A stretch of DNA of 31,760 nt from a virus: positions 1 to 31,760 of the IMG/VR virus record IMGVR_UViG_3300042914_002973; one strand, written 5' to 3'. Below, piece after piece: positions 5,567-13,819 of this stretch. The position numbers and the translations under genes were made by a program. The stretch's first letter is position 1. Every line of letters starts with the position of its first letter. A model generated the notes under the pieces. That model saw only the letters and a program-made list of their open reading frames with translations, did not search any database and was not told the DNA's origin.

Positions 5567-5817
5567 ACAACCAGATCAACGACGGTGGACCGGCGTTTCC
5601 TAGAACCGGAGCCGATGGACATACGAGTCCGCAAAGCGGGATGAGTTTACGCGACTACTTCGCAGCAAAAGCAATGCAAGCGATCATATCGTCTGCATTG
5701 AGTGAAAAGACCAAAACTTACTACGACATCAACGAACCGGACTTTTTGGAATGCTTGTCGCTCGATGCTTATGCACACGCCGACGCCATGATCAAAGCGA
5801 GGGAGGTAAAGCCGTGA
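5563..5817 (+). CDS. Conserved small phage protein, GMSLRDYFAAKAM type
   Basis: An 84-residue protein from GTG 5563, overlapping the resolvase stop. It carries NDGGPAFPR near the N-terminus and GMSLRDYFAAKAMQ at about residues 26-39, then a helical C-terminus with AYAHADAMIKARE. These motifs recur together in small proteins of many phages and prophages, but the function is unknown. The C-terminus REVKP and the sequence GGGAGGTAAAGCCGTGA form an early version of the coupling box repeated downstream. Base composition drops in GC within this gene relative to the resolvase, which marks the beginning of the small-gene array. Confidence 0.75.
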   Translation: MNNQINDGGPAFPRTGADGHTSPQSGMSLRDYFAAKAMQAIISSALSEKTKTYYDINEPDFLECLSLDAYAHADAMIKAREVKP

Positions 5818-6005
5818 GTAGCATTTCACTTTTAGAACAATGCATGTACGGACTTGTAGCAGGTTGTTTTCTGTCCTTAGCAATCCTGTGGGGCGATCAA
5901 CTTGGCAAGAGCAGCATGCGCGAAGAAGCCGTGAGGAAGGGCCACGCTGAGTGGGTTGTCGATTGCGCGAATAAAAATCAATTCAAATGGAAGGAGTGCA
6001 AATGA
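5814..6005 (+). CDS. Small single-span membrane protein (array member, paralogue A)
   Basis: A 63-residue protein from GTG 5814 in the coupling box; an upstream in-frame ATG at 5751 would extend into the previous gene without an SD and was not chosen. Residues 8-26 (EQCMYGLVAGCFLSLAILW) form one hydrophobic segment. The tail is polar and ends QFKWKECK. The gene at 7236 has the same plan: one membrane span, an EA-(V/I)-x3-(H/V)A region, then QFKWKEAKP, so the two are paralogues within the array. Similar one-span proteins with a short charged C-terminal tail are common in phages and have no assigned function. The stop overlaps the next start (ATGA). Confidence 0.7.
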   Translation: MSSISLLEQCMYGLVAGCFLSLAILWGDQLGKSSMREEAVRKGHAEWVVDCANKNQFKWKECK

Positions 6006-6322
6006 GCCAAATCAACGACGCATTCGGAAGACCTCTGTATGATCCTCTGTATGATGCGATTCTCGGAACACCACCGCCAACGTGGGAGCAAACCTGCTTG
6101 GATCTGGACAAGAAACTGGCCGACTCACGCCAGCACGTCACCGAACTCGAAAACCGTCTCCGCGCTCTGTGGGACAAGCTGGAGGGTGAGAGGAAGCACT
6201 ACGAAGACCGCATCAAGCGGCTGGAGGATGCTCTTCGCCGCATCGCCAATCAGGACTACCGAGGCAACCGCTCGACCGAATCACAGATCGCCGCAGAGGC
6301 GCTGAAGGAGGCCAAGCCGTGA
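6002..6322 (+). CDS. Coiled-coil array protein (106 aa)
   Basis: This starts at ATG 6002, preceded by GGAAGGAGTGCAA as SD and overlapping the previous stop. It is 106 residues long. The region from about residue 32 to 84 is a continuous heptad-rich helix (LDKKLADSRQHVTELENRL, then EDRIKRLEDALRRI). EDRIKRLED is one copy of the DRIKRL module shared by several array proteins, and the C-terminus LKEAKP is encoded by a perfect copy of the 18-bp coupling box. It probably oligomerises through the coiled coil. Function unknown. Confidence 0.7.
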   Translation: MSQINDAFGRPLYDPLYDAILGTPPPTWEQTCLDLDKKLADSRQHVTELENRLRALWDKLEGERKHYEDRIKRLEDALRRIANQDYRGNRSTESQIAAEALKEAKP

Positions 6323-6558
6323 CGTGTCCTATCTGCAACCAAAAAATTGATCCATCGGATCATTCAGAAAAATGGGGTCCAGAGTTTGCCCATTCGCGTT
6401 GCGTTATCGCATTCACCGCAGGATCGGCTATTCAAAATGCGAAACTACAAGACCGCATCAAGCGGCTGAAGTGTGAGGTGGAACTGCTGCGACTCTACGG
6501 AAACAAGGACTGCACCGCCCAAGCCGATGAGGTGCTAAAGAAGGAGGCCAAGCCGTGA
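6319..6558 (+). CDS. Zinc-ribbon plus coiled-coil array protein
   Basis: A 79-residue protein from GTG 6319 inside a perfect coupling box. The N-terminus has CPIC (residues 3-6), then His15 and an HSRC (about residues 25-28), a likely Cys/His zinc-binding knuckle. A short linker leads to the module LQDRIKRLKCEVELLRL (about residues 44-60), which matches the coiled coil of the neighbours at DNA level. It ends KKEAKP. The build is therefore a variable N-terminal domain joined to the shared helix and shared C-terminus. Whether it binds DNA, RNA or protein cannot be told. Confidence 0.7.
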   Translation: MTCPICNQKIDPSDHSEKWGPEFAHSRCVIAFTAGSAIQNAKLQDRIKRLKCEVELLRLYGNKDCTAQADEVLKKEAKP

Positions 6559-6851
6559 GCAAATACATGAATCCATTCAAATCAGTCAGCGCCAATTTCA
6601 ACAACGAGCCATTGCTCACAATCCATTGCGATGGACGTGTGACGACAAGCGATAGGCTCAAGCCAGAAGAGACTGCCGCGCTTGTGCTGGATCAGATCAA
6701 GACCCAGTGGCAGAAGGATGCACAGGCCACGAAGATCCGCGAGCTACAAGACCGCATCAAGCGGCTGGAGGAGGCGGGGGATGCACTCGCCAACAATCAC
6801 AACCCGTTTACGTTTATCGACTGGCACAAAGCCAAGGAGACAAAGCCGTGA
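6555..6851 (+). CDS. Array protein with variable N-domain and shared coiled coil
   Basis: A 98-residue protein from GTG 6555 in a perfect coupling box. The N-terminal half (to about residue 60) is unique and strand-rich (PLLTIHCDGRVTTSD), followed by a helix (EETAALVLDQIKTQW). The second half has ELQDRIKRLEEAGDALANN, nearly identical in DNA to the module of the gene at 7045, then a DWHKAKETKP ending. The 34 bases from 6750 match those from 7144 with one mismatch. The shared C-terminal half and unrelated N-terminal half suggest module exchange by recombination. Function unknown. Confidence 0.7.
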   Translation: MSKYMNPFKSVSANFNNEPLLTIHCDGRVTTSDRLKPEETAALVLDQIKTQWQKDAQATKIRELQDRIKRLEEAGDALANNHNPFTFIDWHKAKETKP

Positions 6852-7048
6852 AGTATCAATACTACTACAAAAACAATGACTGCAAAGCATCCGAGGCAAC
6901 AGACGCGGACTGCATTTGCTGGCATGACGAGGGGACCGGCCCTTTTCCCGACATCCGATACAGCAGCAGATCATGGCATAACATACCGAGCTTCTGGCGG
7001 GTTAAACCTGAAGCCAACTTCAACCACAACAAGGAGGCCAAGCCGTGA
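6848..7048 (+). CDS. Small conserved phage protein with CICWHDEGTGP motif
   Basis: A 66-residue protein from GTG 6848, overlapping the previous stop; the variant box AAGGAGACAAAGCCGTGA gives its SD and start. It begins KYQYYYKNND, has cysteines at about residues 11, 21 and 23 within DADCICWHDEGTGPFPD, and ends NKEAKP from a perfect coupling box. The CICWHDEGTGP motif recurs in small phage proteins of unknown function. It lacks the coiled-coil module, so the coupling box alone defines its array membership. A metal site is possible (two Cys, one His close together) but unproven. Confidence 0.7.
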   Translation: MKYQYYYKNNDCKASEATDADCICWHDEGTGPFPDIRYSSRSWHNIPSFWRVKPEANFNHNKEAKP

Positions 7049-7239
7049 GTGATACACCGAGGACGGATGAAGCGCAGTTTGGAACCGGACGTGTGAGTGT
7101 CGGTTTCGCCCGCCAGTTGGAACTCGAACTGAACGCCGCCAATGACCGCATCAAGCGGCTGGAGGAGGCAGGGGATGAGTTGGTTGGAACCGCAGAGGCT
7201 ATGGACACATGGCGCAAAGCCAAGGAGGCGAAGCTGTGA
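7045..7239 (+). CDS. Coiled-coil array protein, TPRTDEAQFG type
   Basis: A 64-residue protein from GTG 7045. The N-terminus SDTPRTDEAQFG and the following FARQLELELNAANDRIKRL are motifs seen together in many small phage proteins, in which they form a coiled coil. It carries the DRIKRLEEAGDEL module almost identical to that at 6750, and ends TWRKAKEAKL, paralogous to the end of the 6555 gene. The box after it is a variant (AAGGAGGCGAAGCTGTGA). Function unknown; a self-association role is suggested by the heptads. Confidence 0.7.
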   Translation: MSDTPRTDEAQFGTGRVSVGFARQLELELNAANDRIKRLEEAGDELVGTAEAMDTWRKAKEAKL

Positions 7240-7424
7240 GTGACGATGCATTTCCGTACATAGCAGGAGTAATTGGAGGTGCGATATGCTTTGTCATGCT
7301 GTTTGTTGGAAGACACATCGGTGAATCAAACACTAAGCAAGAAGCCATACTCGCTGGAGTCGCGTACTACACCAACGACTCGAGCGGAATGGCGCAGTTC
7401 AAATGGAAGGAGGCCAAGCCGTGA
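7236..7424 (+). CDS. Small single-span membrane protein (array member, paralogue B)
   Basis: A 62-residue protein from GTG 7236. Residues 7-25 (PYIAGVIGGAICFVMLFVG) form a membrane span; the rest is RHIGESNTKQEAILAGVAYY, then a polar stretch and QFKWKEAKP. It parallels the gene at 5814, which has the same span-linker-QFKWKE design, so this family is present twice in the array, separated by about 1.4 kb. An insertion in the inner membrane with the C-terminus in the cytoplasm is likely from the charged tail. Role unknown; super-infection exclusion or membrane anchoring are only possibilities. Confidence 0.7.
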   Translation: MSDDAFPYIAGVIGGAICFVMLFVGRHIGESNTKQEAILAGVAYYTNDSSGMAQFKWKEAKP

Positions 7425-7600
7425 GCGAGAAAAACATCTCCAAGCTGGAGCAAGAGGTGATGGAACTAAAGGCCTGCAACGAATACCTCAGGCAGAAGAT
7501 CGGGCAGCGCGACGACCGCATCCGGCACCTGATCCGGCTGGGACTGGAAACCACACGGCCGGAGGCTCTGGACCAATGGCAGGAGGAGGAGGAGCTGTGA
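7421..7600 (+). CDS. Coiled-coil array protein (59 aa)
   Basis: A 59-residue protein from GTG 7421 in a perfect coupling box. It is nearly all helix with heptad hydrophobics: ISKLEQEVMELKACNEYLRQKI, then DDRIRHLIRLGLE, a diverged form of the DRIKRLEE module, then a W-x-EEEE end where the paralogues have W-x-KAKEAK. Thus it is the third copy of the coiled-coil family (with 6555 and 7045), more diverged. Its 3' end (AGGAGGAGGAGGAGCTGTGA) is purine-rich and provides a strong SD for the next gene, with GTGA overlap. Confidence 0.65.
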   Translation: MSEKNISKLEQEVMELKACNEYLRQKIGQRDDRIRHLIRLGLETTRPEALDQWQEEEEL

Positions 7601-7791
7601 AGCTGCACGAGCTGCCCAGCGACCACCCGGCCCGCAACACCGCCATCCGGGACCTAGATGTCAGGACGGTCTGCCGCCACACCGGCGCCAGGCGAGATCC
7701 GCGGACCTGGAAGATCCAGGCCGACACCTACAACCGCCTCGGCGACACCTGGAGGAATAACTTCGACTGGGTGCTCAACCAGAAACCATGA
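7597..7791 (+). CDS. Hypothetical protein (64 aa)
   Basis: A 64-residue basic protein from GTG 7597, overlapping the previous stop, with the purine-rich AGGAGGAGGAGG run as SD. It has DLDVRTVCRHTGARRDP and a Trp-rich C-terminal half (TWKIQADTYNRLGDTWRNN). It lacks both array modules, and GC rises again here, so it marks the end of the array proper. No family is recognised; the basic charge would allow nucleic-acid binding. Confidence 0.6.
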   Translation: MKLHELPSDHPARNTAIRDLDVRTVCRHTGARRDPRTWKIQADTYNRLGDTWRNNFDWVLNQKP

Positions 7792-7940
7792 ACGACCGCA
7801 TCAAACGCGACCGGGACGGCACCGGGCTCTACAACCTATCGAAGAAGGCAGCGGGCGAGATCTACCGCGCGGCCAAGAACTACAAGCTCAAGGACGACGT
7901 CACCACATGGAAACGACCAAAGAAGAAGGCCAGCCAATGA
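7788..7940 (+). CDS. Very small basic protein (50 aa)
   Basis: A 50-residue protein from ATG 7788, overlapping the previous stop (ATGA), and itself overlapped by the next start. It begins NDRIKRDRDGTG, where the first bases (GACCGCATCAAACG, 7794-7807) resemble the array coiled-coil module, then continues KKAAGEIYRAAKNYKLKDD and ends in a lysine-rich tail KRPKKKASQ. The high charge suggests nucleic-acid contact. There is no SD, so translation would depend on coupling. Confidence 0.55.
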   Translation: MNDRIKRDRDGTGLYNLSKKAAGEIYRAAKNYKLKDDVTTWKRPKKKASQ

Positions 7941-8134
7941 GACAACCGACCGACAGAGACGTGGCCAGGACGATGGAGGAATACGGCGGCAGCTTCGTCT
8001 CCCGCCTCGGCCATGCAGCGCTGGCTGCTGACCCCGGCAACCTCAAGAAGATCCGGGACACCTGGCCCGACTACTGGGCGCACTACACCCGGCTCGCACA
8101 ATCCAATCTCGAGGACGAGCAGTCGCCCTCATAA
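7937..8134 (+). CDS. Hypothetical protein (65 aa)
   Basis: A 65-residue protein from ATG 7937, coupled by a 4-base overlap; a longer frame from 7658 exists but would overlap two genes and lacks an SD. The sequence is helical: RDVARTMEEYGGSFVSRLGHAALAAD, then a second helix containing NLKKIRDTWPDYWAHYTRLA. Proteins with a ...IRxTWPxYWxxY pattern appear in replication regions of phages, without a known function. It is the last gene before the ssDNA-binding candidate, separated by a 33-base C/A leader. Confidence 0.6.
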   Translation: MRQPTDRDVARTMEEYGGSFVSRLGHAALAADPGNLKKIRDTWPDYWAHYTRLAQSNLEDEQSPS

Positions 8135-8167: not shown

Positions 8168-8956
8168 ATGGGAATCACAGCAACAAAGAGCCAAGGCGGC
8201 GGCAACTTCCAGCCCTGCCCGGAATACCAAGGCCGCGCGGTCTGCGTGGACATCACGCCGCTGAAGCCCTACGAGACGCAATTCGGCACCAAGGAGAAGT
8301 TCAAGATCGCCTTCGAGATCGACCTGGTCGACGACTCGAGGAAACCGCCGCAGCCCTGGGTGGTGATGACCGCCCCGATGACGCCAAGCCTGCACGAGAA
8401 GGCAGCCCTGACCCGCTTTCTGCGAGACTGGTTCGGCCGGAGCCTCACACCGCAGGAGACCTCCAGCCTCGACCTGGACACGCTCATCGGGCGCCCGGCC
8501 TCGGTGGTGATCGTTCACGAGTCCAGCCCGGACGGGTCGAAGACCTTCGCCAACATCAAGCTGATCATGGCGCACAAACAAGGGGCGCCGTTGGAGCCGT
8601 CCGGGCTCTGGGTGCGGCTCCAGGACCGGCCTCCGAAGGACGGCGCCACGGGTGCAGCCGGAGACGGCGGCGACAGCACCTACCGCCGCACCGGGCCCAC
8701 AGCGCCGCCCGACCAAGACACCGACATCAGCAAGACCAAGGTGCACGTCGGCAAGCACAAGGGCGTCGAGCTGCGGGAGCTGACCGAGGAGGCCATCACC
8801 GCCTTGATCGAGCATTGGCTGCCGAAGGCCAAGGCCGCCGAGAAACAGACGGCCGACGACAAGCGCCTCATCCGCGGCCTGGACTGGTACCAGGACCGAT
8901 TCAAGCAGGCCGAGCTGGCCCAACAAGATGTCGAGCAGGACGACATCCCATATTGA
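8168..8956 (+). CDS. Putative phage ssDNA-binding protein with SSB-like acidic tip
   Basis: A 262-residue protein starting at ATG 8168. The N-terminal two thirds (to about residue 165) look like a beta-rich fold, with FKIAFEIDLVDD and the segment PSLHEKAALTRFLRDWFGR; proteins with this layout lie in many phage replication/recombination modules. A GKHKGVELRELTEEAI stretch near residue 198 resembles the GKxKGxxLxEL motif seen in the DUF3820 family. The C-terminus DVEQDDIPY mimics the acidic aromatic tip of bacterial SSB (DDDIPF), which recruits repair and replication partners. It likely coats ssDNA for the helicases downstream, but I cannot confirm an OB fold. Confidence 0.65.
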   Translation: MGITATKSQGGGNFQPCPEYQGRAVCVDITPLKPYETQFGTKEKFKIAFEIDLVDDSRKPPQPWVVMTAPMTPSLHEKAALTRFLRDWFGRSLTPQETSSLDLDTLIGRPASVVIVHESSPDGSKTFANIKLIMAHKQGAPLEPSGLWVRLQDRPPKDGATGAAGDGGDSTYRRTGPTAPPDQDTDISKTKVHVGKHKGVELRELTEEAITALIEHWLPKAKAAEKQTADDKRLIRGLDWYQDRFKQAELAQQDVEQDDIPY

Positions 8957-8959
8957 CCC

Positions 8960-9337
8960 ATGACCACCCAGGAAAAGGTCCAGATCGCCTCGGACATGCG
9001 CCGGGCCGGGGCCACCTATCAGCAGATCGCCATCCGCCTCGGGGTCTCGAGGCAGCGTGCCTGCCAGCTCACCCAGGTGGGCGCCCGGCAGGATCTCGTG
9101 GAATCCATCTGGGGCTTCCGATTCAGCGTCCGGACGATGAATTGCCTGGCCAAGATGGCCATCACCAAGAAGGAGGACGCCATGGCGCTCTACCAATCGG
9201 GCCACCTCCGCCCCAACATCGTTCGGGGCTTTGGCATCGTCTCATTCTTCGAGGTGTGCCGATGGCTCAAGGTGCCTCCGACGGTGCAGCATCTCTGCCG
9301 CAACTGCGGCACGTCAACTTCCTCAGCCTGTAGCTGA
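8960..9337 (+). CDS. HTH protein fused to RNA polymerase alpha-CTD-like domain
   Basis: A 125-residue protein from ATG 8960 (TGACCCATG). Residues 15-38 (AGATYQQIAIRLGVSRQRA onward) form a helix-turn-helix. Residues 54-105 then follow the helix-hairpin-helix pattern of the C-terminal domain of RNA polymerase alpha: FSVRTMNCLAKMAI aligns with LxVRxxNCLxxxxI, and GFGIVSFFEV aligns with NLGxKSLxEI. The residues that contact UP-element DNA in E. coli alpha (Arg265, Asn268, Cys269, Gly296, Ser299) correspond to Arg58, Asn61, Cys62, Gly92 and Ser95. A C-terminal CRNC and a further Cys could bind zinc. It probably regulates transcription by binding AT-rich promoter DNA, or the host polymerase. The match is by eye, not by search. 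Confidence 0.7.
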   Translation: MTTQEKVQIASDMRRAGATYQQIAIRLGVSRQRACQLTQVGARQDLVESIWGFRFSVRTMNCLAKMAITKKEDAMALYQSGHLRPNIVRGFGIVSFFEVCRWLKVPPTVQHLCRNCGTSTSSACS

Positions 9338-9339
9338 GG
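9321..9339 (+). terminator. Hairpin over the stop codon of the alpha-CTD-like gene
   Basis: CCTCAGC (9321-9327) pairs perfectly with GCTGAGG (9333-9339) around loop CTGTA; the TGA stop lies in the right arm. No T run follows, so it is at best a weak or Rho-assisted terminator, or an mRNA stability element. The 63 bases after it up to 9402 hold no gene. Confidence 0.35.
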
Positions 9340-9402
9340 GGATCATGGACAACAGCGGGGGGCGCGCATCCGCGGAATAACGCGCACAACAACTTCCATC
9401 AC

Positions 9403-10065
9403 ATGCCAGCCAATCCAACCATCATCTTCGACATCGAGACCGGGCCGCTGCCTGCCAGCGAGCTGGTCATCCCGCCCTTCGACCCATCAGCGGTCAAGCT
9501 GGGCAACATCAAGAACCCCGACCTGATCGCCGAGAAGATCCAGAAGGCCGAGGAAAGCCACGCCGCCGACTACATCAAGAACGCCGCCCTGGACGCCATC
9601 AGCGGGCAGGTACTCTGCATCGGCTACCGCATCGAGCACGACCAGCCCGCGGTGCTGTGCGCCGACGCCGACGGCGAGGCCGCCATGCTGCGGCAATGGT
9701 GGGCAGCGCTGAACGACTTCCAGCGGCAGCCGCGCATCATCGGCTTCAACATCAAGGCCTTCGACCTGCCGTTCCTCATCCGCAGGAGCTGGCGCCACCG
9801 GCTGACGCCGCCCTATTGGCTACGCCAAGGGCGCTACTGGAACGACCTCATCGTCGACCTGCGGGAGGTCTGGCAGCTCGGTGACTCACGGGCCCATGGC
9901 AGCCTCGGCGCCATTAGCCGGCACCTCGGCCTCGGCGAGAAGGCGGGCAACGGTGCCGACTTCTCGGCCCTCTGGCAGACCGACCGCCAGGCGGCCATCA
10001 ACTACTGCCTGCGCGACGTACAGCTCACCCAGCAGGTCGCCGACATCCTGATCCCGACCTACTAA
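9403..10065 (+). CDS. DnaQ/PolB-type 3'-5' exonuclease
   Basis: A 220-residue protein from ATG 9403. The three DEDD exonuclease motifs are visible: Exo I IIFDIETG (Asp10, Glu12), Exo II IIGFNIKAFDLPFL (Asp121), and Exo III YCLRDVQLT (Tyr201, Asp205). The spacing and the N-x3-FD form of motif II are like the exonuclease domain of family B polymerases standing alone. No polymerase domain follows; the gene ends and the helicase starts within a TAATG overlap. It may proofread for a host polymerase, trim DNA ends for recombination, or process primers. Confidence 0.85.
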   Translation: MPANPTIIFDIETGPLPASELVIPPFDPSAVKLGNIKNPDLIAEKIQKAEESHAADYIKNAALDAISGQVLCIGYRIEHDQPAVLCADADGEAAMLRQWWAALNDFQRQPRIIGFNIKAFDLPFLIRRSWRHRLTPPYWLRQGRYWNDLIVDLREVWQLGDSRAHGSLGAISRHLGLGEKAGNGADFSALWQTDRQAAINYCLRDVQLTQQVADILIPTY

Positions 10066-11342
10066 TGACCACAACCACCTGCCCGGTGATGGACGACATC
10101 GACAGCTTCAACCCGACGCCGGAGGCCCGGTTCCTCGCCTGGGCGACCACGGGCGGCAACGTCTTCCTCACCGGGCAGGCCGGCACCGGCAAGTCCACCC
10201 TGCTCGGCAGGTTCCTCGACTGGGCCCGGCTGAAGGGTATCACCGTGGCCGTCACCGCCCCCACCGGGATCGCAGCCCTGAACGTCGGCGGCACCACCGT
10301 GCACCGCTGGTGTGGCATGCAGCTCGGGCCACAGGACGCCGAGACGTTCGAGGCCGCAGGCGCCCGACTGGAAAGCCACGGCGCCTACTACGGGGCGGTC
10401 AACCGTGTCCAGGAGACCTCGGTGCTGGTTATCGACGAAATCTCGATGATGGCCGGGCGGCAGCTCGACTTCCTCGACTTCTGGCTCAAGCGCATCAGAG
10501 AAGACGACGCACCGTTCGGCGGGCTCCAGGTGATCTTCCTCGGCGACTTCCTGCAGCTACCACCCGTCCGGACCGACGCCTCCAAACCCTACGACTGGGC
10601 CTTCCGCAGCGAGGCCTGGAAACAGGCCGACTTCAAGACCATCCGCCTCGAGACCGTCCGGCGCCAGAACGACCTCGCCTTCGTCCAGGCCTTGAGCGGG
10701 TTCCGCATCGGCAAACTGCGGAAGATCGACGCCGACATCCTGCGCTCTCGGGTGCAATGGTTCCCGAAGGCCGAGATCACCCATCTCCTGACCCACAACG
10801 CCCAGGTAACCAAATGGAACACCTACCGCCTCGAGAACGTGCCCGGCGAGGTCCTGACCTTCGAGGCCCGCACCAAAGGCGTCGAGCAGGCGGTCGACTT
10901 CGCCACCAAGAACATGTCCACCCCCCGGGTGCTCCAGATCAAGGTGGGCGCCGCCGTGATGTTCACGGCCAACGACGCCGAGCAGGGCTTCGCCAACGGT
11001 CAGATCGGCACCATCACCCGGGTCAGCGGCACCGTCATCCATGTCCACAGCCGCCGCACCACGATTTCCATGGAGCCACGAAAATGGTTCTTTGACAACC
11101 TGGGAGTGACCGTCTGGCAATACCCGCTCCGCCTGGCCTACGCCATGACCATCCACCGCGCCCAAGGCCTGACCCTCGACGCCGCCTACATCGACATCCG
11201 CGCAGCCCGGGAGCCCGGGCAAGGCTACGTCGCCCTGAGCCGCGTCCGCAGCCTTCCGGGCCTGCACCTCAAGGAATGGCCGAAGGGCTGGTTCATCTCA
11301 GAGGAGGCCTTGCGCTTCGAGAACCGCGAGCCCAACCCCTGA
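10065..11342 (+). CDS. PIF1/RecD-like superfamily 1B DNA helicase
   Basis: A 425-residue protein whose ATG overlaps the exonuclease stop by one base. Helicase motifs appear in order: motif I GQAGTGKST (residues 37-45), Ia TAPTGIAALNVGGTTVHRW (about 64-82), motif II VIDEISMM (122-129), motif III GDFLQLPPV (160-168), and C-terminal TIHRAQGLTLD and YVALSRV (about residues 363-395). This matches PIF1-like proteins in length and order, so it should move 5' to 3' on DNA with ATP. Together with the exonuclease and the primase-helicase it forms a replication or recombination unit. Confidence 0.9.
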   Translation: MTTTTCPVMDDIDSFNPTPEARFLAWATTGGNVFLTGQAGTGKSTLLGRFLDWARLKGITVAVTAPTGIAALNVGGTTVHRWCGMQLGPQDAETFEAAGARLESHGAYYGAVNRVQETSVLVIDEISMMAGRQLDFLDFWLKRIREDDAPFGGLQVIFLGDFLQLPPVRTDASKPYDWAFRSEAWKQADFKTIRLETVRRQNDLAFVQALSGFRIGKLRKIDADILRSRVQWFPKAEITHLLTHNAQVTKWNTYRLENVPGEVLTFEARTKGVEQAVDFATKNMSTPRVLQIKVGAAVMFTANDAEQGFANGQIGTITRVSGTVIHVHSRRTTISMEPRKWFFDNLGVTVWQYPLRLAYAMTIHRAQGLTLDAAYIDIRAAREPGQGYVALSRVRSLPGLHLKEWPKGWFISEEALRFENREPNP

Positions 11343-11353
11343 CCCGTTTTTCC

Positions 11354-13345
11354 ATGATCTCCCTTCACGACCTCGAGCAATGGCTCGGCACCCCGCTCTT
11401 CCTAGTGCCATGCCGCCCCGGCACCAAGATGCCGGTGGTCAAATACACCCAGGAGACCCTGCAGGGCACCGCCCGGCCCGCCTACCAGGCTCTGCTGGAG
11501 CAGTCGAACATCGCCGTCCGATTGGGCGAACACTCGGGCGGCCTGTGCGCCATCGACTTCGACGACGACGACAGCCTCGAGGAGTTCCTAGCGGTCAACC
11601 CCCACCTCCGGACTTCCGCGCGGTGGAAAGGCCGCCGCGGCGCCCAGATCGGCGTTCGCCTGACCGGCACCTACCCGGGCCCATGCAGCGCCCGCCACCC
11701 GACCGAGACCGTCGAGGTCAACGGCCGGCAGCTCGGGCGCCCCCTGTACGAATGGCGCAGCACCGGCAACCTCTCGACCGTCCGCGGCACCCACCCATCC
11801 GGCTGCAGCTACCAGGTGCTCGTCGCCAACCCGCCGGTCACCATCGCCTTCTCGCAGATCCGCTGGCCGGAGGGCTGGCCGGTTCCGGGCGAGGACGACA
11901 GCGTGGCCCGCCTCCTCGAGCAGTTCGGCGAGGCCTGGACCTTCAACAAGGCCGGCAACGGCACCCTGCAGCCCCCATTCTTCGCCGCCTACCTCGCGCA
12001 CAAAGAGCGGGTGCTGTTCGACACCGTCACCGGCCAGTTCTACTTTTACCTCGCTGATCGCGGCATCTGGCAGTCGATGTCACGCGAGGAAGTCGGGCAA
12101 CGGGTGCTGGCCATGGCCCGCAAGGTCATCCTGGATCACGCCGCCGCCCAACAGGCGCCCCATCTCCGCACCCTGCTGCCGAAGCTCACGGCCCAGTTCT
12201 CCAACCAGGTGATCGAGCTGGCCAGCCACCTGCAGGTCGAGCGCGCCCCATTCGGACGCCCGGACTCCATCGTGCACACCGAGAACGTCATGGTCGACCT
12301 TCGGGTGAGCCCCTACGGCATGCACAGCTTCTCGCCGGAATGGTTCAGCCGGAACCAGACCCCCATCCGGTACGTCGAAGGCGCCACCAGCCCGATGTGG
12401 CAGGCCTTCCTCGACCATTGCCTGCCGGATCCCGACGACCAACACCTCCTCCAGCATTGGGGCGGCCTGGCGCTGCTTCAACGCAACCGGCCGCAGGTCA
12501 TCCTCCTGCTCACCGGCACCGGGGGCGGCGGCAAGTCCACCGTCGCCGGCGTCGTCCGCCGCCTCGTGGGCGACGAGAACTGCACCGAGCTCCGCACCCA
12601 ACACCTCGGCGGGCGCTTCGAGGCCGGCCTATTCCACGACAAGACCCTCCTCATCGGCTCCGACGTTGCACCGGACTTTCTGTCCTGCGACTCCAGCGCC
12701 TTCCTCAAGGCCATGACCGGCGGCGACCGCATCATCGCAGAGTTCAAAAACAAGAACGGCGTAAAGACGCTGGTCGGCGACTGGAACGTCATCGTCACAG
12801 CCAACAGCCGGCTGAAGGTAAACGTACAAGGCGACCTCGGAGCATGGGCACGCCGGCTTCTGTTGTTAGATTTCTCACAGCCGAAGCCGGCCAATGTCAT
12901 TCCAAACTATCACGATGTGATGATAGACAAAGAAGGGCCCGGCATTCTCAACTGGTTCTTGGCTGGAGCTAAATCGCTTCGGGCTGTGATAGAAACCGGA
13001 AGGTCGTTTCCTATTACGCCAAGGCAACGCCATAGGGTCGACAACCTGCTCTCGGAATCGGACAGCGTCCGCTACTTCATCACAAACCACATCCAGGCCT
13101 CCAGCATGGCCGCCGATTGTATCACGAGGGCCGAGCTGTTCGAGGCATACCTGCAGCTCTGCGGTGCCAAGGAATGGTCGCCGGAGCCCAACAACCGCTT
13201 CCAACGCCGGGCGGCGGAGCTGATGCTGGAGCTCCACCAGGCCACCGCAACCGAGCATCTCAACCGGGACAACCGCGACGACTCAGGCGACCGCGGCTGG
13301 GTCCGAGTCGTTTTTACCGGCCTCCACGACCTGTCAAGATGTTAG
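11354..13345 (+). CDS. Bifunctional primase-polymerase / SF3 (D5-like) helicase
   Basis: A 663-residue protein. I take ATG 11354 as the start, since an earlier in-frame ATG at 11276 lies inside the helicase gene. The N-terminal part (residues 1-160) resembles a prim-pol domain: CAIDFDDDD (about 65-73) is the metal-binding acidic motif, and EWRSTGNLSTVRGTHPSG fits the later conserved region. The middle (from about 215) fits a D5 N-terminal domain, and the C-terminal AAA+ part has Walker A GTGGGGKST (about 387-395), then LLIGSD and a VIVTANSRL sensor-type strand. It should synthesise primers and unwind the fork. The phage-plasmid family of this type often binds an origin near its own gene. Confidence 0.85.
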   Translation: MISLHDLEQWLGTPLFLVPCRPGTKMPVVKYTQETLQGTARPAYQALLEQSNIAVRLGEHSGGLCAIDFDDDDSLEEFLAVNPHLRTSARWKGRRGAQIGVRLTGTYPGPCSARHPTETVEVNGRQLGRPLYEWRSTGNLSTVRGTHPSGCSYQVLVANPPVTIAFSQIRWPEGWPVPGEDDSVARLLEQFGEAWTFNKAGNGTLQPPFFAAYLAHKERVLFDTVTGQFYFYLADRGIWQSMSREEVGQRVLAMARKVILDHAAAQQAPHLRTLLPKLTAQFSNQVIELASHLQVERAPFGRPDSIVHTENVMVDLRVSPYGMHSFSPEWFSRNQTPIRYVEGATSPMWQAFLDHCLPDPDDQHLLQHWGGLALLQRNRPQVILLLTGTGGGGKSTVAGVVRRLVGDENCTELRTQHLGGRFEAGLFHDKTLLIGSDVAPDFLSCDSSAFLKAMTGGDRIIAEFKNKNGVKTLVGDWNVIVTANSRLKVNVQGDLGAWARRLLLLDFSQPKPANVIPNYHDVMIDKEGPGILNWFLAGAKSLRAVIETGRSFPITPRQRHRVDNLLSESDSVRYFITNHIQASSMAADCITRAELFEAYLQLCGAKEWSPEPNNRFQRRAAELMLELHQATATEHLNRDNRDDSGDRGWVRVVFTGLHDLSRC

Positions 13346-13380
13346 AACTGACCCCCCTTTTTGTTCTTGAAGTCCGAAAT

Positions 13381-13411
13381 GTGGCACACTTCTCGAAAAG
13401 ATGTGTGCCAC
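13381..13411 (+). repeat. Inverted repeat 1, GTGGCACAC
   Basis: GTGGCACAC (13381-13389) and its complement GTGTGCCAC (13403-13411) enclose 13 bases whose centre adds TCT/AGA pairing around CGAAA. It lies in the 150-base gap (13346-13495) between the primase-helicase and the next gene, together with a C6T5 run at 13352-13362. The perfect arms and the second, longer repeat using the same core point to a protein-binding site. Confidence 0.75.
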
Positions 13412-13444
13412 AGAAAACCCGCGCCAGTATTGATCGAAATGCGA

Positions 13445-13557
13445 TGTGGCACACAAGTCACACATTTTTCTGAACTCACCCGTACCCACGAGAAAATGAC
13501 CGTTTCATCGTATTCAGTAGGAACCGAGTCGAAAACTTCTGTGACTTGTGTGCCACA
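13445..13557 (+). repeat. Inverted repeat 2, 18-bp arms with the same core
   Basis: TGTGGCACACAAGTCACA (13445-13462) is perfectly complementary to TGTGACTTGTGTGCCACA (13540-13557), with 77 bases between. Both arms contain the GTGGCACAC core of inverted repeat 1, so four copies occur within 177 bases in alternating orientation. The right arm lies inside the start of the following gene. A CATTTTTCTG tract follows the left arm. A replication origin, a looping operator, or an RNA structure are all possible. Confidence 0.75.
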
Positions 13558-13819
13558 CGGCAACCCAGGCCTCCAGCTCGACCTTGTCGCAAACCTACGT
13601 CGCCAATCGTCCGGCTTCGTTGGACGGTGCCCAGCATGCGCCGAGGCAGGGCAGGACAAAGGCGGGAACCACCTGGTCATCTGGCCCGACGGTAAGTTCG
13701 CCTGCGTCTGCCATCCAGGCTACCAAGGCCGGGAACATCGCAAGCGAATCTTCTTTCTCGTCGGTAATAAACAAAGGACTCGTTCTTTCAACGTATCAAT
13801 TCAACCATCGCTTCTATGA
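13496..13819 (+). CDS. Zinc-ribbon protein (primase CHC2-like) downstream of primase
   Basis: A 107-residue protein if read from ATG 13496; a TTG at 13361 would add 45 residues that run through the inverted repeats, so I chose the ATG. GRCPACAEAG is followed about 19 residues later by FACVCHPGYQG, giving a C-x2-C ... C-x-C-H metal site with aromatic strands between, as in primase CHC2 zinc ribbons (template recognition). No TOPRIM domain follows. It may help the neighbouring prim-pol/SF3 enzyme recognise primer sites. The C-terminal 25 residues are basic. Its stop overlaps the next gene (ATGA). Confidence 0.6.
   Translation: MTVSSYSVGTESKTSVTCVPHGNPGLQLDLVANLRRQSSGFVGRCPACAEAGQDKGGNHLVIWPDGKFACVCHPGYQGREHRKRIFFLVGNKQRTRSFNVSIQPSLL

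Follow-up and report, generated by a model that had tools for sequence, protein, structure and literature searches.

Phages modify, cut or block the C-terminal domain of the RNA polymerase alpha subunit (alpha-CTD), and they also remodel sigma region 4. At bacterial promoters, sigma region 4 occupies the -35 element, and alpha-CTDs occupy the UP DNA upstream of it (PMC2988021; PDB 3n97). Phage T4 ADP-ribosylates Arg265 of the alpha-CTD (PMC2988021), and phiKMV Rac is reported to cleave alpha (PMC7552054). The locus described below encodes a protein of 125 aa whose domain content is well supported and comprises counterparts of both recognition modules: a helix-turn-helix (HTH) like that of sigma-70 region 4 and, at residues 51-105, a diverged homolog of the alpha-CTD. 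It lies in a 31,760-nt stretch of viral DNA (IMG/VR record IMGVR_UViG_3300042914_002973), hereafter called the window. Our search of the open literature, with most subscription papers outside its range, returned no description of a phage-encoded alpha-CTD, which is weak evidence of absence.

Gene, Family and Genomic Context

The gene and its immediate neighbors are located as follows:

8168..8956, plus strand: upstream neighbor, 262-aa protein (conserved synteny)
8960..9337, plus strand: gene of the HTH/alpha-CTD-like protein, 125 aa (ORF; syntenic family; dN/dS)
9403..10065, plus strand: downstream neighbor, PolB-type 3'-5' exonuclease (PF10108, E 5e-12)

The ORF runs from an ATG, which follows directly on the codon that ends the 262-aa ORF, to a TGA; the exonuclease ORF begins 65 nt past its end. 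The 262-aa neighbor has no Pfam match. An earlier, sequence-only reading had placed the gene at the head of the replication module; instead, it is the second gene of the module, right behind the 262-aa ORF. Its surroundings have a GC content of about 61-65% and are not AT-rich.

A search with the window protein alone retrieved one relative, at 93% identity. More family members were reached through searches with the neighbor genes, which led to numerous contigs of related, uncultured phages. Of 112 distinct gaps bounded by the 262-aa and exonuclease genes, 109 encode a relative, mostly 31-48% identical to the window protein, the closest relative excepted. The collection amounts to 92 distinct proteins from uncultured phages, all at one fixed gene position; residue conservation was counted over 90 relatives, and Pfam families were scanned over 38 representatives. 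With dN/dS values of 0.03-0.26 (11 pairs), the ORF is a genuine gene under purifying selection. It is absent, with its neighbors joined, from L024, L038, L048, L403 and L439, and because a few relatives thus do without it, the gene is not essential to the module. These five contigs retain the neighbors and the pseudoknot described below; L403 and L439 also lack the P1 hairpin.

The family was not found in cultured phage records, where tblastn with two members matched HTH segments only. PHROGs matches are chiefly to HTH and sigma-factor families, and the CTD of RpoA used as a query against PHROGs gave no match below E 0.1. A search of genome contigs with the single window protein gave no match, and one with the family alignment gave a single phage-like contig, L295, which is binned in a Verrucomicrobiota MAG. 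Since this binning and a weak match of the window portal protein to Verrucomicrobia phage P8625, among others, are the pointers to a host, the host phylum is a mere guess.

N-Terminal HTH Domain

The encoded protein can be divided into three parts:

8960..9109, plus strand: tri-helical HTH, residues 1-50, sigma-70 region 4-like (Sigma70_r4 matches, AlphaFold2 helices)
9110..9274, plus strand: alpha-CTD-like domain, residues 51-105 (profile-profile comparison, PDB matches, conserved DNA-contact residues)
9275..9334, plus strand: tail with C113-x2-C116 (conservation), a possible metal site

All 38 family representatives match Sigma70_r4 (PF04545), with a best E of 1.9e-8; the window protein itself scores 18.5 bits, below the 24.1-bit cut-off, and its residues 4-48 give sub-threshold Pfam matches to several HTH families. 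Against the PDB, the family profile matches sigma region 4 of RpoD/SigA at residues 16-43, and the model of the relative L018 matches the same region at 33-40% identity over 45-49 residues. In the AlphaFold2 model of the window protein, helices span residues 3-15, 20-27 and 31-51. Because the structural Z of the HTH, about 7-8, is common to other HTH proteins, the assignment is carried by sequence and not by fold, and on that basis sigma-70 region 4-like is the most fitting label for the domain. The pairing of domains is therefore more pointed than the sequence-only reading, which had noted a helix-turn-helix, could see.

In sigma structures, the -35 element is read by R584, E585, R588 and Q589, a set that is not kept as a whole in the family. 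The equivalent of Q589 is Q36 (Q in 90/90) and that of R584 is R/K31; E585 is represented by Q32 (Q in 90/90), and R588 by position 35, which holds S, H, N, D, C or K. Since the equivalents of E585 and R588 are altered, the protein probably does not target a genuine -35 hexamer. Across the family, its recognition residues Q32, R33 and Q36 do not vary. No target DNA site of the protein was found.

Alpha-CTD-Like Domain and Cysteine Tail

In the window protein, the Pfam model RNA_pol_A_CTD (PF03118) matches residues 44-73 with 15.9 bits (E 0.011; cut-off 23.8). This cut-off is passed by no single family sequence scanned, E 0.011 being the best value, and 8 of the 38 representatives match below E 0.1. 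The comparison of profiles is clearer: family residues 45-110 against the CTDs of RpoA from 30 Verrucomicrobiota and E. coli score 29.4 (E 2e-5), a value reached by none of 300 column-shuffled profiles (mean 9.4, maximum 21.3) nor by the reversed profile (7.0), and the likeness is therefore beyond chance. A RuvA/HHH_5 control gave no match, and it counts for little because its alignment was of mixed to poor quality. Searched against the PDB, the family profile finds the alpha-CTD of H. pylori (2max) at residues 53-104 with E 0.025.

The predicted structure points the same way. The AlphaFold2 model of the window protein has a mean pLDDT of 86.9, and among the best 50 PDB matches, its residues 49-108 are covered by RpoA CTDs only (7vpd, 1z3e, 2max, 9dvu, 9dvt, 1lb2, 8y5l, 8igr, 9zum, 6vjs, 8f1j and 9msh), with Z of 5.3-6.3, rmsd of 1.7-2.9 A and identity of 21-28%. 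Over residues 51-104, the matches include 1z3e_B (Z 6.2, rmsd 1.7), 2max (Z 5.9) and 1lb2_B (Z 5.5, rmsd 1.8). Foldseek alone finds nothing at E below 0.001 for the window model, and the PDB matches listed for the L018 model are taken up by its HTH half; for these two reasons, the fold evidence is good, not overwhelming.

Residues that contact DNA in the alpha-CTD, known as the 265 determinant, are kept to differing degrees. The equivalents of R265 (R58) and G296 (G92) are invariant (90/90 each), that of S299 (S95) is S or T in 89/90, and that of E302 (E98) is conserved in 89/90; K298 and N268 are partly kept, as K in 64/90 and N in 60/90, and most members have lost N294, whose equivalent is kept in 7/90 only. 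The six determinant positions exceed the average conservation of the domain, and 9% of random six-position sets equal them; the weight of this conservation lies in its coincidence with known DNA contacts. The sequence-only reading had proposed an N-terminal HTH and an alpha-CTD-like C-terminal half, both of which are present in the ORF, and had pointed to two patterns in the latter. Its GxxS occurs as 'GIVS' at residues 92-95. Its VRxxNCL can be read in the window protein (FSVRTMNCLAKM, residues 55-66); across the 90 relatives, however, R58 is its only invariant residue, N61 being N in 60/90 and C62 being C in 6/90. The outcome which that reading had named as refuting, the absence of a profile match together with another predicted fold, did not occur.

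H82, C100, C113 and C116 are also invariant (90/90). C100 belongs to the last helix of the alpha-CTD-like domain, H82 to an inserted GHLxP loop, and C113 and C116 form a CxxC in the tail (residues 105-125), which is poorly ordered in the AlphaFold2 model. Given this conservation, the four residues are plausible ligands of a putative metal site, which could bind zinc.

Other Features of the Window

At 13380-13562, behind the primase gene, TGTGGCACAC occurs four times in the window, its orientation alternating, and this array runs on into a small zinc-ribbon-like ORF (13496-13819) at its 5' end. The layout is kept in relatives with different self-complementary sequences (TGTGGGGCGGAT, TGAGACGGAT, GTTTGGGACGG), the arms being about 90-105 nt apart. 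These covarying inverted repeats are a possible origin, operator or attenuator-like RNA.

A comparison of window positions 10065-13345 with L007, L008, L014 and L042 shows a swap of the replication module between conserved flanks. The PIF1 helicase and Prim-Pol/D5 genes of the window group are exchanged for DUF1376-like and DnaB-like genes, the latter two recognized from their sequence only.

At 5797-7941, the window carries an array of small ORFs, in which the junctions repeat AAGGAGGCCAAGCCGTGAG and the coding parts repeat GACCGCATCAAGCGGCTGGAGG (DRIKRLEE). They are apparently duplicated short proteins.

Proposed Function and Alternatives

The 125-aa ORF includes neither sigma region 2, responsible for -10 recognition and core binding, nor region 3, and the protein is therefore not a sigma factor. 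It has no N-terminal dimerization domain of alpha either, the HTH standing in its place, and so it is not an alpha subunit. The presence of both domain kinds in one chain leads us to expect a composite site in the major and minor grooves and an action at promoters. On balance, we lean towards a small DNA-binding transcription regulator of the phage, in which a sigma4-like HTH and an alpha-CTD homolog imitate the sigma4/alpha-CTD pair at -35/UP DNA.

In such a regulator, one long helix (31-51) would join the two parts; the HTH would recognize a specific major-groove site, and the alpha-CTD-like part would grip the adjacent minor groove through the retained residues of the 265 determinant. The protein would lie on DNA in much the way that sigma4 lies next to the proximal alpha-CTD at -35/UP, and host polymerase might be either recruited or displaced at the occupied site, so that the effect could have either sign. 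The sequence-only reading had suggested an early-to-middle promoter switch, an effect on host polymerase by recruitment or competition, and the binding of AT-rich leaders, all of which would be conceivable for a protein of this kind. A more specific version, which we put forward only tentatively, is a one-chain substitute for sigma4 and alpha-CTD that would act outside the polymerase on -35/UP-like promoter DNA of phage or host and re-program host start sites; if true, the phage would possess a promoter switch made of the polymerase's own recognition parts.

Considerably less probable is a competitor or decoy, which would bind UP/-35 DNA or the host's sigma4 or alpha-CTD and shut host transcription without activating phage promoters, by functional analogy with T4 Alt/ModA or phiKMV Rac, both directed against the alpha-CTD of the host. 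A stand-alone DNA-contacting surface could compete, and the disabling of alpha-CTD by phages is known from Arg265 ADP-ribosylation in T4 (PMC2988021) and from the reported cleavage of alpha by Rac (PMC7552054); however, the gene is located mid-operon between the 262-aa ORF and the exonuclease gene, not amid obvious host-takeover genes.

We regard as unlikely a replication accessory, that is, an origin-binding or nucleoprotein-organizing factor using both DNA-binding domains at the phage origin. The fixed position within the replication module and the repeat-rich possible origin at 13380-13562 are in line with such a role, but the gene stays when PIF1 helicase and Prim-Pol/D5 give way to the DUF1376-like and DnaB-like genes, and its retention beside two unrelated replication modules disfavors a role tied to one replisome. 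Moreover, no counterpart of the zinc-ribbon gene containing the 13.4-kb repeats was found in the relatives with the DUF1376-like/DnaB-like module, and the repeat sequence differs widely among lineages, whereas Q32, R33 and Q36 are invariant. Reading of these repeats by the HTH protein is not supported, given lineage-variable repeats against constant recognition residues and a protein that is kept with the other replication module.

Least probable of these alternatives, and improbable in our view, is a generic HTH protein whose C-terminal helices became alpha-CTD-like by convergence (helix-hairpin-helix-like) and are unrelated to RNA polymerase: the Pfam match is sub-threshold, the structural Z is modest (5-6), and WGxPF, GHLxP and a 3-residue insertion are specific to the family, but the profile-profile score falls far outside the 300 shuffles, only alpha-CTDs match the segment among the PDB matches listed, and the conserved positions fall on the 265 determinant.

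RNA Element at the 3' End of the Gene

The stretch between the HTH/alpha-CTD and exonuclease genes is conserved even in relatives that lack the former gene, and it contains the following structures:

9321..9339, plus strand: hairpin P1, 9321-9327 with 9333-9339 (covariation); straddles the HTH/alpha-CTD stop codon
9355..9385, plus strand: H-type pseudoknot (covariation; exhaustive motif search)
9355-9358 with 9370-9373: pseudoknot stem S1, GCGG with CCGC, 100% paired
9362-9366 with 9381-9385: pseudoknot stem S2, GCGCG with CGCGC, 99.6% paired

Over 46 distinct sequences, 97.2% of the cells in the hairpin and pseudoknot pair, both partners change in 9 of 17 pairs, and the covariation score is 0.270 compared with 0.130 after shuffling, with none of 500 shuffles reaching the observed value. 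In S1, one pair switches between G-C and C-G (24:22); in S2, one does so between C-G and U-A (23:23). When the partners are slid by 1-3 columns, pairing falls to 26-50%, a comparison biased toward the structure because it was drawn from the same sequences. The covariance model (cmsearch) has a single match in the window (9317-9385), and an exhaustive motif search finds the pseudoknot there once, against a mean of 0.06 in the first-order shuffled window. Where a gene has been inserted ahead of the exonuclease gene, the RNA element stays directly 5' of the inserted gene. L085, L042, L075 and L163 carry such an insertion, 3' of the pseudoknot and ahead of the exonuclease gene, in the form of a small ORF with an HTH-like segment (MKLNLSAERIAALCAPPP...). 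The hairpin and pseudoknot likely constitute a translational leader element.

The bare pseudoknot, about 24-31 nt long, is found ahead of many further phage genes as well, among them the lysozyme gene in relatives. For one version of its sequence, an ORF start follows 9-39 nt 3' (median 16) in 113 of 116 matches; the genes downstream in this set belong to 14 protein groups, and a Shine-Dalgarno-like stretch is present in 3 matches only. A general motif scan yielded 200 distinct instances, which represent 19 stem combinations; in 195 instances, an ORF start lies within 70 nt. As the contigs were chosen by the motif or by family genes, the pseudoknot counts describe context, not frequency. For instance, the pseudoknot was observed at L158:1335-1362 and L008:521-544, in L539, L560 and L584 and at about 200 other places, and the unrelated genes behind it include those for lysozyme, an HU-like protein and ORFs without assigned function. 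Among cultured phages, it occurs in Mycobacterium phage LilMcDreamy and in Corynebacterium phage BFK20, 18 nt before ORF32.

Rfam 15 has nothing for the hairpin/pseudoknot element at gathering cut-offs and chance-level matches alone below them, and the open literature, searched with most subscription papers outside its range, holds no description of the pseudoknot that we could find, again weak evidence of absence. Absent from Rfam 15 as far as tested and recurring ahead of many phage genes, the pseudoknot would provide a new type of phage mRNA leader that is open to experiment, and this side result may outweigh the protein finding.

Comparison with Known Systems

The C-terminal part of the phage protein resembles the CTD of RpoA (PF03118) in the fold and helix order of its model, in the equivalents of R265, G296, S299 and E302 and partly of N268 and K298, and in the profile-profile match. 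It differs from RpoA in having no alpha-NTD, in scoring below the Pfam cut-off and in the loss of N294 from most members, as well as in its 3-residue insertion, its fixed helix to the HTH and its Cys tail. The N-terminal part shares with sigma-70 region 4 (PF04545) the HTH sequence and fold, the invariant equivalents of Q589 and R586 and an R or K at the equivalent of R584, whereas it has only three helices, a Q in place of E585 and a variable equivalent of R588.

The pairing of the two domains is not unprecedented, since a bacterial protein also carries both: a 388-aa product encoded in a Verrucomicrobiota genome (L498:1457-2620) matches RNA_pol_A_CTD (PF03118) with 49.2 bits and then Sigma70_r4 (PF04545) with 28.9 bits. 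Compared with this cellular protein, which is three times longer and without a Cys tail, the phage protein has the reverse domain order, with the sigma4-like part first. The same domain types stand side by side on UP/-35 DNA in PDB 3n97; there they are two separate protein fragments, whereas the phage has one chain, and the likeness is one of domain types alone. The HTH/alpha-CTD protein could serve as a minimal tool for studying sigma4/alpha-CTD cooperation at -35/UP DNA.

With T4 Alt/ModA (PMC2988021) and phiKMV Rac (PMC7552054), the protein would share a phage action centered on alpha-CTD function. Those proteins act enzymatically, modifying or cutting the subunit of the host, whereas the phage protein described here is a copy of the domain; if both recognition domains are carried in one 125-aa protein, this would be a different route to taking over promoter choice.
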